Below, piece by piece: positions 9,254-47,232 of a DNA stretch of 64,000 nt. Both the position numbers and the translations under genes were made by a program. Source of the DNA: Candidatus Nanopelagicales bacterium (GTDB taxonomy: Bacteria > Actinomycetota > Actinomycetes > S36-B12 > GCA-2699445); NCBI GenBank assembly GCA_030700225.1, contig JAUYJT010000017.1, positions 1 to 64,000 on the forward strand, in the 5' to 3' direction. Position 1 is the stretch's first letter. Every line of letters starts with the position of its first letter. The notes beneath the pieces were generated by a model. That model was not told the origin of the DNA, did no database searches, and saw only the letters and a program-made list of their open reading frames with translations.

Positions 9254-9330
9254 GGGCGCATAGCTCAGTTGGTTAGAGCACCTGCCTTACAAGCAGGGGG
9301 TCAGGGGTTCGAGTCCCTTTGCGCCCACCA
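9254..9330 (+). tRNA. tRNA-Val (anticodon TAC)
   Basis: A full cloverleaf can be folded. The acceptor stem is GGGCGCA with TGCGCCC, the D arm contains TAGCTCAGTTGGTTAGAGCA, the anticodon stem CCTGC/GCAGG encloses the loop CTTACAA, and the T arm has GGTTCGAGTCC. The anticodon TAC reads GTA (and other GTN by wobble) as valine. The discriminator is A and the terminal CCA is encoded. No adjacent tRNA is seen. Confidence 0.96.
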
Positions 9331-29649: not shown

Positions 29650-30411
29650 ATGGCTGGAATCCTGGAGCTGTTCCCCGCTGTCGATGTCGCTGACGGCAAG
29701 GCCGTCCGCCTGGTCAAGGGGGTCGCGGGCACGGAGACCGACTACGGCGACCCCATCGAGGCCGCTCTGCGGTGGCAATCTCAGGGAGCGTCCTGGATCC
29801 ACTTGGTGGACCTGGACGCGGCTTTTGGCCGAGGCTCAAACAGGGAGCTGTTGTCTGATGTAGTTGGACGCGTCGACATCGACGTGGAACTCAGCGGCGG
29901 AATACGTGACGAGGATTCGCTGACGGCGGCCCTGGCCACAGGATGCCGACGGGTCAATCTCGGCACAGCCGCGCTGGAAAGCCCCCAGTGGTGCGAGAAA
30001 GTCATCGCCGAGCACGGAGACCGCATCGCTGTCGGTCTGGACGTGAGGGGGAGTCGCCTGGCAGCTCGGGGATGGACGCGCGAAGGTGGGGAACTGCTCG
30101 CGACGATCGCGAGACTGGATGCGCAGGGGTGCGCGCGCTATGTCGTGACCGACGTGTCTCGCGATGGCACTTTGACCGGGCCCAACCTGGAGCTGCTCAG
30201 GGTTGTCTGCCACAGGACTGAACGGCCGGTCATCGCTTCTGGCGGCGTCGCGAAACTGGAGGATCTGCATGAGCTCGCGGAGCTCCTGCCCTTGGGACTT
30301 GAAGGCGTGGTTATCGGCAAGGCGCTGTATTCGGGGGCGTTCTCGCTCTCCGAGGCTTTGGCCGCAGTCGCTCCTCGCCGGGATTACCTTGACCTCGACG
30401 GTGCCGTCTGA
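29650..30411 (+). CDS. priA: Bifunctional ProFAR isomerase / phosphoribosylanthranilate isomerase PriA
   Basis: This beta/alpha-barrel isomerase acts on ProFAR in histidine synthesis. The sequence is of the actinobacterial PriA type: [56 protein letters not shown] and [18 protein letters not shown]. PriA proteins in Streptomyces and Mycobacterium also replace TrpF, relying on an Arg near residue 19 and an RGWTR loop; both are present here (VRLVKG and ARGWTREGG). No trpF gene is seen among the trp genes of this window, which fits dual use. Catalytic acids Asp in PAVD and TDVSRDGT are conserved. The dual function is inferred from family and context. Confidence 0.94.
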
Positions 30412-30450
30412 CCCAGGGCTGAACAGAACCTGCGAACCCGCCCGAACTTA

Positions 30451-30554
30451 GCGGACGTTCTTGACAAACGCGCCCTTTAGGGTACAGACGCGCCCGTTAC
30501 AACGGGTGTCTCCTTGCGTAACGGTCGCGTTTGCACGGAACGGCCGCTTCCGCG
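30451..30554. repeat. Dyad-symmetric intergenic element, copy A
   Basis: This roughly 104-bp noncoding element aligns along its whole length with 42451-42553. Its modules read ACGTT (30455), CCCTT (about 30474), CCGTT (30494), then inverted AACGG at 30501, 30520 and 30539. Spacing is 19-20 bp on each side of a centre of dyad symmetry near 30499. The sequence between modules resembles ACAAACGCG or ACAGACGCG in one orientation and its complement in the other. It lies after priA and before the convergent PPOX gene. The same spacing is kept in copy B despite base changes. Function is unknown: a multi-site operator, a mobile palindromic element and an RNA hairpin are all possible. Confidence 0.8.
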
Positions 30555-30557
30555 CAA

Positions 30558-30583
30558 GGGGGCGGGGCCGTAGCGGGGGGGGG
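30558..30583 (+). other. G-run tract following element A (possible G-quadruplex)
   Basis: Runs of five, four and nine guanines (GGGGG C GGGG then GGGGGGGGG after CCGTAGC) follow the palindromic element within four bases. The long last run can supply two tracts, so an intramolecular quadruplex is possible. Copy B has an even clearer tract at the same place. Confidence 0.5.
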
Positions 30584-30587
30584 CGAA

Positions 30588-30980
30588 CTAGGTGGGGATG
30601 GTTAGCCGGACGGCCGCGTAGTGCTCAGGCCGCTGGCGGGTAACCCGCAACACGATGTCCAGCATCGGCCAAACCAGCCCGTACCTTCGGCGCAGGAGAT
30701 CGCGGGTCCGCGATACGCCAGCCTGATCGACTACGAGCTCAGCTTGGGCCTGGGTTGTGCCGCCTTGGGCCTTGCCGCTGCGATCGCACGGAGCCAACTC
30801 AACGTCAGGGTTGGCCTTGATGTTGCGGGCGGTTTCGGACGCGTCATCGACAATCAGGTAGAGGTGATCTCCTTCGCGCGCGACCCATTCAGCCGTCGTG
30901 CTGGTGGTCCCGGCGGCGCTCGAGGTCGTCAGCAGTATGTTCCGCGCCGCGCTCATGCGGTCAAGTTCGGGAGTCCTCAT
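30588..30980 (-). CDS. PPOX-class (flavin/F420-dependent) family protein
   Basis: This 130-residue protein matches the small split-barrel PPOX family of actinobacterial FMN/F420-dependent enzymes (TIGR03666/TIGR03668-like): an N-terminal helix with LDRMSAARNILLTTSS, TAEWVAREGDHLYLIVDD, and ARNIKANPDVELAPCDRSGK, a typical nucleotide-cofactor region. The substrate is unknown. I prefer ATG 30980, where the family alignment begins; the frame runs up to 31037 and would then overlap hisF. It is transcribed against the his genes, from between priA and hisF, so it interrupts the operon. The stop codon touches the G-run tract after element A. Confidence 0.75.
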   Translation of the reverse strand: MRTPELDRMSAARNILLTTSSAAGTTSTTAEWVAREGDHLYLIVDDASETARNIKANPDVELAPCDRSGKAQGGTTQAQAELVVDQAGVSRTRDLLRRRYGLVWPMLDIVLRVTRQRPEHYAAVRLTIPT

Positions 30981-40688: not shown

Positions 40689-41492
40689 ATGGCTAGTACT
40701 GAGAGCAGCCGCGCGAGGAAGAGAGCGGCTGAGGCCCGGGCGGCAGCGGAGGCAGCCCAGAACCGGCGCCAGCGACTGATCAACATCGGGATTGGTGCCG
40801 TCCTGGTCGTAGTCGTCGTCGGCCTGGTCGGGGGAGCCTGGTGGTCGTCGGGCAGGTCCGGGGGGAACATCGAGCCTTCAGCGGACGCGGTCTTGCCGCA
40901 GGGAGTACTCGCGGCGGATAGTCCCTACGCGTACGGAGTCGTGGCTGCCAAGGGTGCGGCTCAGGGCAAGCCGGTCGTCGAGATATGGGAGGACTTCCAG
41001 TGCCCAGCCTGCGAGTACTTCGAGAAGGTCTTCGGCGAAACCGTGACGGAGATGGCGAAGTCCGGCGACGCCGAAGTCATTTGGCGCACGATCGCGTTCC
41101 TGGACAGCAACATTCCCGGCCAGAACTCCAAACGGGCCATGTCGGCTTGGGGATGCGCCATCGACGAGGGCAAGAAGGACGAGTACCACGAGATCGTGTT
41201 CGCCAACCAGCCGACTGAGGGTGTCGGCTGGACCAACGACCAGCTGATCTCCTTCGGGGCGCAGGCGGGCATCAAGGGCGACCGCTTCGACCCCTTCAAG
41301 CAGTGCGTTGTCTCCGAAACGTACTTCGGATGGTCTGTCAACAGCACCGACCAGATGCGGATCCAAGGCATCACAGGTACGCCCACGGTCGTCGTGAACG
41401 GGAAAAAAGTCGCCTTTGATCCCTCGGATCCGGACGGGGACATCGAACGGCTGAAGAAGGCAGTGGCCGAGGCGGGGGCGCCGCAGAGTTGA
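40689..41492 (+). CDS. DsbA-like thioredoxin-fold membrane-anchored protein
   Basis: This would introduce disulfide bonds into exported proteins. An N-terminal Arg/Ala-rich cytoplasmic segment is followed by one transmembrane helix (about 31-52), and then a DsbA/thioredoxin_4 domain with the active site CPAC at 105-108 (WEDFQCPACEYF). The cis-proline is in GITGTPTVVVNGKKV. Two extra cysteines (WGCAID and KQCVVS) may form a structural disulfide. The preceding VKOR gene is its likely oxidising partner, 130 bases upstream. The stop overlaps lgt. The ATG is preceded by AAGGGAGC. Confidence 0.9.
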   Translation: MASTESSRARKRAAEARAAAEAAQNRRQRLINIGIGAVLVVVVVGLVGGAWWSSGRSGGNIEPSADAVLPQGVLAADSPYAYGVVAAKGAAQGKPVVEIWEDFQCPACEYFEKVFGETVTEMAKSGDAEVIWRTIAFLDSNIPGQNSKRAMSAWGCAIDEGKKDEYHEIVFANQPTEGVGWTNDQLISFGAQAGIKGDRFDPFKQCVVSETYFGWSVNSTDQMRIQGITGTPTVVVNGKKVAFDPSDPDGDIERLKKAVAEAGAPQS

Positions 41493-42373
41493 TGCTCCCC
41501 GCCTACATCCCGAGCCCCCCGCACGGTGTCTGGTACCTAGGGCCGCTACCGCTGCGCGCGTACGCGGTCGCGATCATCCTCGGGATCGTCGTGGCGATCT
41601 GGGTGGGGGACAAGCGCTGGGTTGCTCGCGGTGGGTTGCCCGGGACTGTCCTTGACGTGGCGATCTGGGCGATTCCGTTCGGGATCGTCGGTGGTCGGCT
41701 GTATCACGTCATCAGCGACAACCAGCTCTACTTCGGTCCAGGAGGCAGCGGCTTCGCGGGTGCTGTGCAGGTTTGGCAGGGCGGCCTGGGTATCTGGGGC
41801 GCTGTGGCGCTCGGTGCGCTCGGTGCCTGGATTGGCTGCCGTCGCAAGGGCATTCCGCTTCCGGCGTTCGGAGACGCGATAGCGCCCGGCATCGTGCTCG
41901 CCCAGGCGATCGGGCGCTGGGGCAACTACTTCAACCAGGAACTCTTCGGCGGGCCCACTGACCTGCCCTGGGGTCTCGCGATCGATCCAGTGAACCGGCC
42001 AGACGGGTTTGAGCAGTTCGCGACCTTCCATCCGACGTTCCTGTACGAGTCGTTGTGGAACCTCGGCGTGTTCACGGTGTTGCTTCTGGCAGACAAGCGC
42101 TTCCGCATGGGGCACGGTCGGGTGTTCGCCTTGTACATCGCTTTGTACTGCCTAGGCCGCCTGGGTGTGGAGTGGCTTCGAATCGACACGGCGAACATCA
42201 TCTTCGGCCTTCGCTTGAACATCTGGACGTCAATCCTGGTCGGGCTCGGTGCCGTCGTGTGGCTGATCATCAGCGCTCGGGTCAGGCCAGGCCGCGAGGC
42301 GCCGGAGACTCTGCGGCCGCCGGAGCCCGTCGCGGGTAGTGAAGAGGAAGACACCGCCGAATCATCTTCCTAG
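41492..42373 (+). CDS. lgt: Prolipoprotein diacylglyceryl transferase
   Basis: Lgt attaches diacylglycerol to the lipobox cysteine of prolipoproteins at the membrane, the first step in lipoprotein maturation. The 293-residue protein has seven hydrophobic helices and the family signature GRWGNYFNQELFGGPTDLPW, with VGGRLYHVISD and HPTFLYESLWNLG also conserved. The ATG at 41492 shares one base with the dsbA-like stop (TGATG). The hydrophilic C-terminus is Glu/Pro-rich. It would act on proteins such as the PI-PLC-like lipoprotein at 13.6 kb. Confidence 0.95.
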   Translation: MLPAYIPSPPHGVWYLGPLPLRAYAVAIILGIVVAIWVGDKRWVARGGLPGTVLDVAIWAIPFGIVGGRLYHVISDNQLYFGPGGSGFAGAVQVWQGGLGIWGAVALGALGAWIGCRRKGIPLPAFGDAIAPGIVLAQAIGRWGNYFNQELFGGPTDLPWGLAIDPVNRPDGFEQFATFHPTFLYESLWNLGVFTVLLLADKRFRMGHGRVFALYIALYCLGRLGVEWLRIDTANIIFGLRLNIWTSILVGLGAVVWLIISARVRPGREAPETLRPPEPVAGSEEEDTAESSS

Positions 42374-42450
42374 CACGGCAGATCCCGAGTTCTGGGGAAT
42401 CGCTTCAGCCGTGGCCTTGGTAGCTCGATGGAACTCCACGCCCGCCGCGA

Positions 42451-42553
42451 AACGGCCGTTCCGAACAAACGCGACCGTTCGGGTACAGACGCGCCCGTTG
42501 CAACGGTAGTTTCCTTGACTAACGGGTGCGTCTTTCCGGAACGGCCGTTCCGG
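42451..42553. repeat. Dyad-symmetric intergenic element, copy B
   Basis: This 103-bp element has imperfect inverted arms at 42451-42479 and 42521-42549. Each begins or ends with the palindrome AACGGCCGTT. Direct CCGTT modules lie at 42456, 42475 and 42495, and inverted AACGG modules at 42502, 42521 and 42540, so the spacing is 19, 20, then 7 across the centre, then 19, 19. The centre CCGTTGCAACGG (42495-42506) is a perfect palindrome. On the left the modules carry ACAAACGCGA and ACAGACGCGC prefixes, repeated with a 20-bp period. Copy A at 30.5 kb shows the same spacing. It precedes gltB by about 150 bases. Confidence 0.85.
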
Positions 42554-42554
42554 C

Positions 42555-42579
42555 GGGGCGGGGCGGGGGCGGGGCGGGG
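42555..42579 (+). other. G-quadruplex-forming tract after element B
   Basis: Five guanine runs of four or five bases are separated by single cytosines (GGGG C GGGG C GGGGG C GGGG C GGGG). This satisfies the standard intramolecular G-quadruplex pattern with one-base loops on the + strand, the coding strand of gltB. It starts two bases after element B, as the looser tract does after element A. Confidence 0.75.
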
Positions 42580-42705
42580 CGCGGCCGGTCACGATTTGGT
42601 GCCCAAAGGCACGCGTGAAGTAGGCTCATGGGCGCGGGGCCTGTCACTCTGCGGTTCACATCTGCGATGATCATCGCTGGAATTCGAAAGACGGAGGTTC
42701 ACATC

Positions 42706-45700
42706 GTGCACACCGCCTTTCCGCGGCGCCAAGGCCTGTACGACCCGTCAGCCGAGCACGATTCGTGCGGCGTTGCCTTCGTGGCCACACTCACAGGCGA
42801 GCCAAGTCACGACATAGTCGACAAGGCGCTCTCAGCGCTGCATAACCTGGAACATCGCGGAGCATCAGGGTCGGAGCCGGACTCCGGTGACGGGGCCGGG
42901 ATCCTCACTCAGGTACCAGACGAGTTCTTTCGACAGGTCGTCGAATTCGATCTGCCGCAGTCTGGTCAGTATGCCGTAGGCACAGCGTTCCTTCCGGTCG
43001 CCGCTGCTCTCGCGGATGAGGCTGCTGCTCGTGTGGACGAGATCGCGGCGGGTGAAGGGCTGGAGGTGCTCGGCTGGCGAGATCTGCCGGTCAACTCGGC
43101 CCTAGTGGGCCGCACGGCCCGCAGTGTCATGCCGAGGTTCCGGCAGCTGTTCCTCGCCGCCCCCGATCGTGGCTTGAAGGGGATGGATCTGGACCGCGTG
43201 GCGTTCTGCGTGCGCAAGAGGGCGGAGCGGGAAGCTGACGTGTACTTCCCTTCGCTATCCGCGCGGACAATCGTGTACAAGGGGATGCTGACGACAGCTC
43301 AGCTTGAGCCTTTCTACCCGGACATCTCCGATCCCCGCTTCACCTCGGCGATCGGCCTCGTTCACTCAAGGTTCTCCACCAACACGTTCCCGTCGTGGCC
43401 GCTGGCCCACCCCTATCGGATGATCGCGCACAACGGTGAGATCAACACAGTCATGGGCAACCGGAACTGGATGCGGGCGCGCGAGGCCATATTGACCTCG
43501 GACGTGATCCCGGGGGACCTCACGCGGCTGTTCCCGATCTGCACTCCCGGCGCCAGCGACTCGGCGTCGTTCGATGAGGTGCTGGAGCTGTTGCATCTGG
43601 GCGGGCGGGCATTGCCGCACGCGGTCCTGATGATGATCCCGGAGGCCTGGGAGAATCACGCTGAGATGGACCCCGCCCGGCGCGCGTTCTACGAGTTCCA
43701 CTCAACGTTGATGGAGGCATGGGACGGCCCGGCGAACGTGTCCTTCACTGACGGAAACGTGGTCGGGGCAGTGCTGGACCGCAACGGCCTGCGGCCCGGG
43801 CGTTTCTGGGTGACTTCCGACGGGCTAGTTGTGCTGGCGTCAGAGACTGGAGTCCTGGATCTGGATCCGGCCACCGTAGTTCGTAAGGGCCGGTTGCAGC
43901 CGGGCAGAATGTTCCTAGTCGACGTCGGAGCCGGACGCGTCATGGAAGACGATGAGATCAAGTCCGCTCTTGCCGCCGAGAACCCATACCAGGAGTGGCT
44001 AGACGCCGGAGTCATTCATTTGGATGACCTGCCGGAGCGTGAGCATGTCGTGTACACCAGGGAGTCCGTGCTGCGCCGCCAGCAGATGTTCGGTTACACG
44101 GAAGAGGAACTTCGGATTCTGCTGACCCCGATGGCGGCGGCGGGGGTTGAACCGATTGGCTCCATGGGAACCGACACCCCGATCGCGGCCATCAGCGATC
44201 GGCCCCGGCTTCTGTTCGACTACTTCGCCCAGCTCTTCGCGCAAGTCACGAATCCTCCGCTTGACGCGATCCGGGAGGAGATCGTGACGGCCCTCAGCAC
44301 GGGTATTGGCCCTTCGGGGAACGTCCTGGGCGCTGAGCCGGGCGACTGCCGTCAGGTGCGGTTGCCTTTCCCGGTGATCAACAACGATGACTTGGGCAAG
44401 ATCCTCCACATCAACGCATCTGGTGATCAGCCAGGGCTGGCAGCCGGCAGCGTGTCCGGGCTGTACCGGGTCGATGAGGGCGGTGACGGACTGCGCCGCA
44501 GCCTGGACGCGGTCTGCCGCGAGGTCGACGCGCTGATCAACAAGGGCAAGCGGTTCATCATCTTGTCGGATAGGAATGCCGACGCGGACCGCGCTCCGAT
44601 TCCGTCGCTGCTGTTGGCCTCAACTGTGCATCACCATCTCGTACGCGAGAAGACTCGGACCCTCGTCGGCATCATCGTCGAGGCCGGAGACGTGCGCGAA
44701 GTTCACCATGCGGCTTTGCTGATCGGCTATGGCGCGGCCGCGGTGAACCCGTATCTGGCCATGGAGACAGTCGAGAACCTGGCCCGCCGCGGGATGCTCG
44801 GTGATGTCGCGCCCGACGCGGCAGTCCGCAACCTGATCAGGGCCTTGGGCAAGGGTGTGCTGAAGGTCATGTCCAAGATGGGCGTATCGACCGTGTCGTC
44901 GTACTGCGGCGCTCAGATATTCGAGGCAGTCGGACTATCGGCGGAGCTGGTCGACCGCTACTTCACCGGCACGACGTCCAAGCTTGGGGGAATCGGTCTG
45001 GATGTGATCGCCGAGGAAGTCGCACGTCGGCATCGGGTCGCCTTCCCCCCGAGCGGAGTGTCGCCAGCCCACCGCAGGCTTGCCGTTGGAGGCGAGTACC
45101 AATGGCGCCGCGAAGGCGAACCGCACATGTTCGACCCGGAAGCGGTGTTCTGGCTGCAGTACTCAACGCGAGAGAACCATCCGGGTGTCTATCGCAAGTA
45201 CAGTCAGCGCGTCGACGACCAGTCCGCGAGGTTGATGACGCTGCGCGGGCTGTTCCGATTCAAGGATGGGCTGCGCCCGGCACTACCGCTCGATGAGGTG
45301 GAACCTGTCCACGAGATCGTCAAAAGGTTCTCCACCGGTGCGATGTCGTACGGGTCGATCTCGTCCGAAGCGCATTCGACCCTCGCGGTCGCGATGAATC
45401 GACTGGGTGGGAAGTCCAACACCGGAGAGGGCGGTGAGGATCCTGAGCGCTTCGTGTCCATGGCCAATGGGGACTCCCAGCGCTCTTCGGTGAAGCAGGT
45501 CGCGTCCGGACGCTTCGGTGTGACCAGCGAGTACCTGGTGAACAGCGACGATATTCAGATCAAGATGGCTCAGGGCGCCAAGCCTGGCGAAGGCGGGCAG
45601 CTCCCAGGTCACAAGGTCTATCCGTGGGTGGCCAAGACCCGCCACTCCACGCCAGGTGTCGGACTGATCTCTCCACCGCCTCACCACGACATCTACTCGA

Positions 45701-47232
45701 TCGAGGATCTGGCCCAGCTGATCCACGATCTGAAGAACGCCAATCGCCACGCGCGAATTCACGTCAAGCTGGTCTCCGAAGTTGGGGTCGGGACGGTAGC
45801 GGCTGGCGTCAGCAAGGCCCACGCTGACGTGATCCTGATCTCCGGGCACGACGGCGGTACTGGGGCGTCGCCGCTGACGTCGCTGAAGCATGCTGGAGCG
45901 CCGTGGGAGCTGGGATTGGCTGAGACGCAGCAGACGCTGTTGTTGAACAACTTGCGCGACCGCGTCGTTCTGCAAACCGACGGGCAACTCAAGACCGGCC
46001 GAGACGTAGTCGTGGCGGCGCTGCTCGGTGCCGAGGAGTTCGGATTCTCGTCCGCGCCGCTGGTGGTCCTGGGTTGCGTCATGATGCGGGTGTGTCATCT
46101 GGACACCTGTCCGGTCGGGATCGCGACTCAGAACCCGGTTCTAAGGGACCGGTTCACAGGCAAGGCTGCACATCTGGTCCGGTATTTTGAGTTCCTAGCG
46201 GAGGAGGTTCGCGAGTACTTGGCCGCGCTGGGGTTCCACAGCCTGGATGAGGCGATCGGTCACGCCGAGATGCTGGACACCGCTGAGGCGATCGATCACT
46301 GGAAGGCCAGCAACCTGGACCTGAGTCCGATCCTCCACGTGCCGGATGTGGCGCATTCCAAGCGCAAGGTAATCGAGCAGGACCATGGTCTGGATCACGC
46401 CCTGGACAACGAGCTGATCCGATTGCGTGAGGACGCGCTCCGCAGGGGGGAGCCTGTCAGGGGCCACTTCCCGATACGAAACGTCAATCGCACGGTCGGG
46501 ACGATGCTGGGGGCTCAGATATCTCGCACGTACGGCGGGGACGGGATGCCGGAAGGCAGCATCGACCTGACGTTTGTCGGATCCGCGGGGCAGTCCTTCG
46601 GCGCATTCATTCCGCGCGGCGTAACCCTGAGGCTGGAGGGGGACGCCAATGACTACCTGGGCAAGGGGCTGTCGGGCGGGACGATCGTGGTGCGTCCCGA
46701 TCGGAAGTCCGTGCTCGTCGCGGAGGAGAACATCATCGCGGGGAACGTCATCTGCTACGGAGCCACGTCCGGGAACGTGTTCCTAAGGGGACTCGTCGGG
46801 GAGCGGTTCTGCGTGCGCAACTCCGGCGCGACCGCTGTCGTGGAAGGTGTCGGTGACCACGGCTGCGAGTACATGACCGGAGGCAGGGTAGTAGTGCTTG
46901 GCTCCACAGGCCGCAACTTCGCGGCGGGAATGTCCGGTGGAGTCGCCTACCTGCTGGATCCGGACCCGAGGCGGATCAACACAGGGATGGTTGAGCTGGA
47001 GGATCTCGATGATGATGATGACCGGAAGTTCCTCCTTCAGATCATCGAACAGCACTTCCTGGAAACCGAGTCCCCTGTGGCGAAGCGGCTGATGGACGAC
47101 CCCAACTCCGCGTTGGCCAGATTCGCGAAGATCATGCCAGTCGACTTCAAGCGAGTGCTGATGGCTCGGGCGCAGGCCGAATCGCAGGGTCGCGACCCGA
47201 TCGAGGCGATCATGGAGGCGAGTCGTGGGTGA
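42706..47232 (+). CDS. gltB: Glutamate synthase large subunit
   Basis: GltB makes glutamate from 2-oxoglutarate and glutamine-derived ammonia. The 1508-residue chain has the class II glutamine amidotransferase domain, with the nucleophile Cys21 in [10 protein letters not shown] exposed after removal of a 20-residue propeptide. The central and FMN domains follow, with [13 protein letters not shown] and [19 protein letters not shown]. The [3Fe-4S] cysteines are in [20 protein letters not shown], and the C-terminal beta-helix has the usual Gly-rich repeats. GTG 42706 with GGAGG upstream was chosen over 42628. The gltD start overlaps its end by eight bases. Confidence 0.97.

Follow-up and report, generated by a model that had tools for sequence, protein, structure and literature searches.

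Two copies of a palindromic element in the window

The window (the whole stretch of 64,000 nucleotides analysed here) lies on a contig of its own genome, G000, with the same coordinates. This genome is a 2.6-Mb assembly of 85 contigs and is 96% complete. The window contains two copies, A and B, of one near-palindromic element. Element A lies between a hisA-like gene (29650-30411, plus strand) and a small minus-strand ORF (30588-30980). Element B follows an lgt-like gene (41492-42373) and precedes a gltB-like gene (42628-47232), both on the plus strand; the gene names were given by inspection. A tRNA gene (9254-9327) is the sole Rfam match in the window, and neither element is matched at the gathering score.

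An earlier note on this DNA, made from the sequence alone, had described A as a palindromic modular element with boxes at 19-20 bp spacing around a dyad at 30499, and had pointed to its likeness to B. The description is accurate. A and B have the same orientation and match at 80% across 135 bp (E 8e-22). Their 116-column core aligns without gaps and, in both, the CCGTT/AACGG boxes are spaced 19, 20, 19 and 19 bp (Table 1).

Table 1. Coordinates in the window of elements A and B, their boxes and the adjoining G-rich tracts
Feature	Position	Strand	Basis
Element A, 116-column six-box palindromic element of dispersed family	30442..30557	+	gap-free family-model match, 91.9 bits, E 4.6e-16
A box 1, outer, self-palindromic core, degenerate in A	30448..30461	+	alignment columns 7-20
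A box 2, ACAAACGCGNCCGTT type	30464..30478	+	alignment columns 23-37
A box 3, ACAGACGCGCCCGTT, nearly invariant	30484..30498	+	alignment columns 43-57
A dyad centre	30499..30500	.	columns 58-59; inner arms pair with i+j=117
A box 4, inverted, discrete recurring variants	30501..30515	-	columns 60-74
A box 5, inverted	30520..30534	-	columns 79-93
A box 6, outer, GAACGGCCGYTTC	30539..30550	-	columns 98-109
A G-rich tract after element	30557..30585	+	G enriched on the right of 54 copies
Element B, second copy in the window, orientation as A	42443..42558	+	103.1 bits, E 1.8e-18
B box 1	42449..42462	+	columns 7-20
B box 2	42465..42479	+	columns 23-37
B box 3	42485..42499	+	columns 43-57
B dyad centre	42500..42501	.	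columns 58-59
B box 4	42502..42516	-	columns 60-74
B box 5	42521..42535	-	columns 79-93
B box 6	42540..42551	-	columns 98-109
B G-rich tract after element	42556..42582	+	read directly in sequence; general in family

The dispersed family in genome G000

The earlier note had proposed a search for further copies with conserved spacing, and these are abundant. A DNA search of G000 identifies at least 40 copies and a covariance-model search about 64 places. Some of the latter are the same copy repeated across contig ends, and a fair count is about 60. Fifty high-scoring copies align gap-free over all 116 columns, the element itself being about 110 bp long. In box order, the consensus is GCGGAAACGGCCGTTCC / CGACAAACGCG(A/C)CCGTT / TGGGTACAGACGCGCCCGTT / GC / AACGGTCGTTTCCTTGCGT / AACGGGYGCGTTTGTCGG / GAACGGCCGYTTC. 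It includes three direct and three inverted boxes, 19-20 bp (about two helical turns) apart. The evenly placed protein sites suggested by the earlier note are real as an anatomy of phased boxes, and the conserved columns argue for protein recognition. In three deletion variants (C52:28182, C43:27022 and C13:4353) exactly one box is missing.

The copies have discrete boundaries and unrelated flanks. In 54 copies, most of the ten positions to the left of the core have 54-72% C, and about 11 positions to the right have 52-70% G. The G tract remarked on beside A is thus general and has a matching C/pyrimidine tract on the left. The same asymmetry (C on the left, G on the right) is found for unrelated palindromes of other genomes (Wilcoxon p 1e-5). 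Target-site duplications, another proposed check, were not found in any of the 54 copies.

The copies differ by about 21% (mean core identity 0.786) and the median identity between nearest neighbours is 0.875. Most of them are old. Across the 50 copies, 27 of 104 columns are invariant, compared with 0.07 expected if substitutions fell evenly, and 40 columns have at most one variant. Constrained columns differ by 2.1% between nearest-neighbour pairs and the remaining columns by 19.9%, when columns are classified from the other copies only (leave-pair-out). Arm-to-arm covariation, for which the earlier note had also suggested looking, is absent from 27 G000 copies when compared with shuffles. 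Nor was any association between opposite arm positions found in the 50 copies, where associations are mostly between neighbouring bases. Conserved columns and local associations together with a lack of arm covariation point to recognition of the boxes as DNA rather than as an RNA stem.

Several details of individual copies are included here for completeness. Columns 64-66, 68-69, 84-85, 33-34 and 7-8 of the 50 copies carry discrete recurring words of two to three bases that are linked only locally; these words, including those of box 4, are not associated along the element or across its arms. C34:6513 and C7:919 are diverged copies of a distinct variant, and the sequence they share extends past the element boundary. 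C65:31268 and C44:112950 have a left flank of about 45 bp in common. At C65:31268 a tandem repeat of this flank also follows on the right, and the local duplication spans the element. Contigs C31, C64, C16 and C18 end in or beside elements. The repeats therefore probably break the assembly, and the copy number may be undercounted.

Genomic context and distribution among relatives

Nearly all copies are intergenic. The 52 clear cases are divided between divergent (17), convergent (16) and co-directional (19) gaps, and convergent gaps are about twofold over-represented per intergenic base pair (17 found against about 8 expected). The spacing of copies is uneven, and some form local clusters. Since they occur in all three kinds of gap alike, a classic regulatory site is unlikely. 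The context fits insertion tolerated where it is least harmful better than it fits an operator or a terminator.

The family model identified the element in one other genome (G002) of 40 searched, and the DNA search added its congener, G005. Both belong to a sister genus (g3) and are metagenome-assembled genomes (MAGs): JAPOIY01 (Actinomycetota bin48) and CAIWTL01 (LaPlata 'Micrococcales' bin-553), respectively. Many genomes of the same family, f1, are without the element. The g3 arrays have four inner boxes in common with G000, two of GCGACYGTT followed by two inverted ones, spaced at 19 bp; the outer ends differ. An exact-pattern scan of GTDB r220 contigs and IMG/VR gave no match to the G000 centre, and found the g3 dialect only in the two MAGs. 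Within these databases, the G000 dialect thus seems to be restricted to its own lineage. Orthologous positions between G000 and g3 are limited to, at most, the rpsL region, which is at about chance level, and the nuclease locus described below. No array was found in the lgt-gltB gap of the relatives, the gap sequence being too diverged to define a junction.

A nuclease gene bordered by the element

Comparison of the genes adjoining elements in G000, G002 and G005 singled out one gene (C15:6244-7182 in G000), located between element copies C15:6012 and C15:7320 on a different contig from the window and hence out of reach of the earlier note. Its homologue in G005 is likewise located between two elements, and in G002 two elements enclose a broken remnant of it. 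Family f1 has close homologues in the three array-bearing genomes but none in the other five. This is the only autonomous-like unit found with these repeats. By inspection, its neighbours read as genes for two ABC-transporter proteins and small ORFs, and no AbiEii was recognised among them.

The product combines an AbiEi-like winged-helix part with an MTES_1575/DUF559 Vsr-type PD-(D/E)XK nuclease part. The former occupies the N-terminal 180 or so residues and is matched by PADLOC AbiEi profiles in 22 of 22 aligned homologues, but by Pfam AbiEi_4 in only two of the 22. A structural model of the protein (mean pLDDT 93) has as its best PDB fold the catalytic domain of the homing endonuclease I-Bth0305I (3r3p, E 3e-3, probability 1.00, TM 0.69 on target). 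Vsr (1cw0, 1vsr) is also among the nearest folds, although these E-values are weak and none passes 0.001. Sequence profiles match 3hrl (E 1e-8) and 3r3p (E 1e-4). Residues E206, D237, E248 and D250 are invariant and form the E, D, E-x-D pattern of a Vsr-like PD-(D/E)XK catalytic domain.

G000 includes a second such pair. The nuclease gene C49:4429-5377 is accompanied by an unrelated palindrome of 75-80 bp (GTGATCTTGTCGCG...CGCGACAAGATCAC), which is itself dispersed. This flanks the gene at C49:4316-4410 and C49:5436-5513 and occurs elsewhere in the genome on C77, C23 (two copies), C57, C65 and C20. A third AbiEi-nuclease homologue (C84:35362-36282) is flanked only by a 52-bp direct repeat, which was not seen elsewhere in a sampled 0.5 Mb.

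Flanking repeats at nuclease loci across Actinomycetota

For each locus, the 900 bp flanks on the left and right of the gene were compared with each other by blastn, and palindromy was assessed by a self-complement test. Within the order, a matched flank repeat is present at all 29 testable nuclease loci and is palindromic at 23, compared with one of 27 lgt loci in the same order. Ten further nuclease loci in the order are all flanked (39/39 in total). Of the ordinary genes in the regions retrieved, 5 of 54 are flanked, all weakly. Outside the order, 21 of 29 nuclease loci are flanked (16 by palindromes) and eight have no detectable flank pair. Three named plasmid loci, in Tsukamurella tyrosinosolvens and Arthrobacter sp. 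StoSoilB13 plasmid records, are flanked too.

The palindromes abut the start and the end of the gene. Their sequences differ between genera and also between gene copies in one genome: for example, four nuclease genes tested in another genome, G087, have four unrelated repeats. Actinobacterial genomes carry up to 14 copies of AbiEi/DUF559 fusions. One repeat sequence pairs with one nuclease gene, as judged by co-localisation, co-occurrence and one-to-one matching.

Dispersal is also found in other lineages. G053 and G052, two genomes of genus g27, each carry their flanking palindromes at about 10 or more sites. In G181 the number is about 17, counting the two beside the gene; in G087 there are 24 copies besides the two at the gene, and in Tsukamurella 20 copies across eight T. 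tyrosinosolvens plasmid records. The region within 50 kb of the gene holds eight of the 24 G087 copies, where 1.1 would be expected (p 7e-6). G181 shows weak clustering, and this at 150 kb only (p 0.006). One G087 copy shares its 66-bp core with a gene-flanking copy but has unrelated flanks, and no target duplication of 2-8 bp borders the G087 copies (19 rows).

Three stem positions of the G087 family covary, with 16 double-change cells, a number reached in 3 of 500 shuffles. Between left and right palindromes of 15 loci, nine compensatory pair differences were counted versus 27 one-sided breaks. In these cases palindromy is therefore maintained at least in part. The modest covariation of the G087 family is compatible with a DNA palindrome.

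Most copies in G053 and G052 occupy orthologous places, one differing by a single module of about 31 bp. This implies that copies are old, that movement is rare and that modules are lost or gained in place. The element cores are as conserved as their flanks, or more so. For one G053 copy, the G052 match in an empty-site alignment spans only one side. Genus g27 has two sibling dialects (GTTGCTGACTTGTGGCAAC and GTTGCCCGGTTGTGGCAAC), with modules of about 31 bp around a dyad, which are sometimes adjacent to each other.

Comparison with known systems

The REPtron, in which TnpA-REP/RAYT tyrosine transposases are associated with REP/REPIN/BIME palindromes (PMC8266576, PMC3733652), is the known kind of system closest in architecture. 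Both systems have dispersed intergenic palindromes and an enzyme gene with copies of these palindromes on its borders. In both there is usually a single enzyme gene for each repeat family and, in some genomes, enrichment near the gene. However, the enzyme that defines REPtrons is absent here: in place of a HuH Y1 transposase there is an AbiEi-like protein with a Vsr/DUF559 PD-(D/E)XK nuclease. At 50-130 bp the elements are also longer, and those of G000 and g27 are composed of repeated boxes around a dyad. No conserved GTAG or CGTC tag was found at the ends of 50 G000 copies.

A REP/RAYT system was considered and rejected for G000. The sole Y1 match in this genome (HuH, PF01797) belongs to an IS605-type element (C48:15358-18516), composed of a TnpB-like ORF and the overlapping Y1 match, which covers only the C-terminal part of the profile. 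No array elements occur in the 20 kb around it. PF01797 was found in neither of the other array-bearing genomes, G002 (complete by its score) and G005.

TIRtrons (TIRYT) resemble the present system in having an enzyme gene flanked by inverted repeats able to form dispersed families, but their enzymes are tyrosine transposases (PMC3733652), to which the enzyme here is unrelated. I-Bth0305I, a Vsr-like EDxHD homing endonuclease (3r3p), has, among solved relatives, the fold closest to that of the nuclease domain. It differs in that no intron or intein is involved here, and in that the protein described here has an AbiEi-like N-terminal part, predicted to bind DNA, and dispersed flanking palindromes. 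An AbiEi domain is shared with the AbiE type IV toxin-antitoxin systems, but here it is fused to a nuclease and, at the C15 gene, stands beside no recognised AbiEii. ERIC, BOX, Correia and similar repeats are MITE-like imperfect palindromes of comparable size that are intergenic and dispersed. They are unrelated in sequence to the G000 element, and none is known to have a nuclease partner flanked by the repeat.

Proposed mechanism and alternative explanations

Given the observed dispersal, six-box anatomy, pairing of nuclease with repeat, spread across Actinomycetota and strong constraint on the copies, the explanation towards which we lean is that A and B are non-autonomous members of a repeat family partnered by the AbiEi-like/Vsr-type nuclease, in an arrangement like that of a REPtron but with an unrelated enzyme. 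Mobilisation of the palindromes by the nuclease is inferred from the homing-type fold, the clean insertions without duplication and the clustering near the gene in G087. The AbiEi-type winged-helix part would bind the boxes of its own palindrome and the nuclease part would cut or nick DNA at or near the palindrome, or at the target site. Repair or replication would then place a copy of the palindrome at another intergenic position, with no duplication of the target and, rarely, the whole palindrome-gene-palindrome unit might be copied. After insertion, copies would persist and be maintained; strong constraint and orthologous retention imply that they are kept. Much of this pattern would also be expected from a regulatory or binding relationship in which nothing is mobilised.

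One explanation of the latter type is that the palindromes are chromosomal binding sites for the AbiEi-nuclease or another protein (in nucleoid organisation, supercoiling, replication or segregation), kept for function and not for mobility. This would agree with the small difference at constrained columns (2.1% versus 19.9%, with 40 of 104 columns having at most one variant), with the evenly phased boxes, with the orthologous retention and well-conserved cores in G053/G052 and with the excess in convergent gaps (17 against about 8). We nevertheless consider it unlikely. The sequence is wholly different between related genera and even between the gene copies of one genome, many relatives of the same family lack the element, spacing is uneven with local clusters, and each repeat family is tied to a nuclease gene. 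It is more doubtful still that the AbiEi-type domain autoregulates its gene through the palindromes while the dispersed copies, spread by some other mobile-element route, act as decoys. AbiEi antitoxins bind inverted repeats at their own promoter, which, together with the PADLOC AbiEi match in 22/22 aligned homologues and the position of the palindromes against the gene start and end, is in keeping with such a role. This leaves the downstream copy, the dispersal into all kinds of gap and the clustering in G087 unexplained.

We attach little probability to the idea that the repeats are an ordinary MITE, derived from an unrelated DDE transposon with an undetected autonomous copy, and that the nuclease gene is captured cargo. 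Terminal inverted symmetry and many non-autonomous copies are what such an element would have, but there is no target-site duplication in the 54 G000 copies or the 19 G087 rows and, because unrelated palindromes accompany one nuclease family in many genera, cargo capture would have to recur each time. A structured RNA (a bidirectional terminator or an mRNA-stabilising hairpin) is the least probable of these explanations and was rejected for the G000 family in view of the lack of covariation (27 copies versus shuffles), of arm-to-arm association (50 copies) and of any Rfam match. One third of the copies, moreover, lie in divergent promoter gaps. These points outweigh the strong folding (-72 to -88 kcal/mol), the enrichment in convergent gaps and the compensatory arm changes in some other families. 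Among the three readings offered by the earlier note, the palindromic mobile element is best supported, by its sharp boundaries, unrelated flanks, high copy number and the enzyme gene lying between two copies; a regulatory site is unlikely in its classic form and the hairpin RNA is not supported here.

Returning to the nuclease-partnered mobile repeat, a broader proposal has, in our estimation, about an even chance of being correct. This is that an undescribed class of mobile repeat is widespread in Actinomycetota, in which a fused AbiEi-like/Vsr-type homing nuclease disperses its own flanking palindromes in lineage-specific dialects, as RAYT supposedly does with REPs. The absence of the REPtron enzyme and the open-access literature, in which we found no paper linking DUF559 or AbiEi proteins with palindromic repeats, suggest that the system is new in kind. 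At present, AbiEi/DUF559 fusions are annotated as antitoxins, as 'DUF559 domain-containing' proteins or as candidate defence genes. If each of them partners dispersed palindromes, many unknown genes and unexplained intergenic repeats would have a joint explanation, and counts of defence genes that include these fusions would need revision. The system would also represent a second, independent invention of the partnership between REP and transposase, with a Vsr/homing-type nuclease. The spread of palindromic repeats could then be tested in a new enzyme family, for which Tsukamurella and Arthrobacter provide cultured examples.
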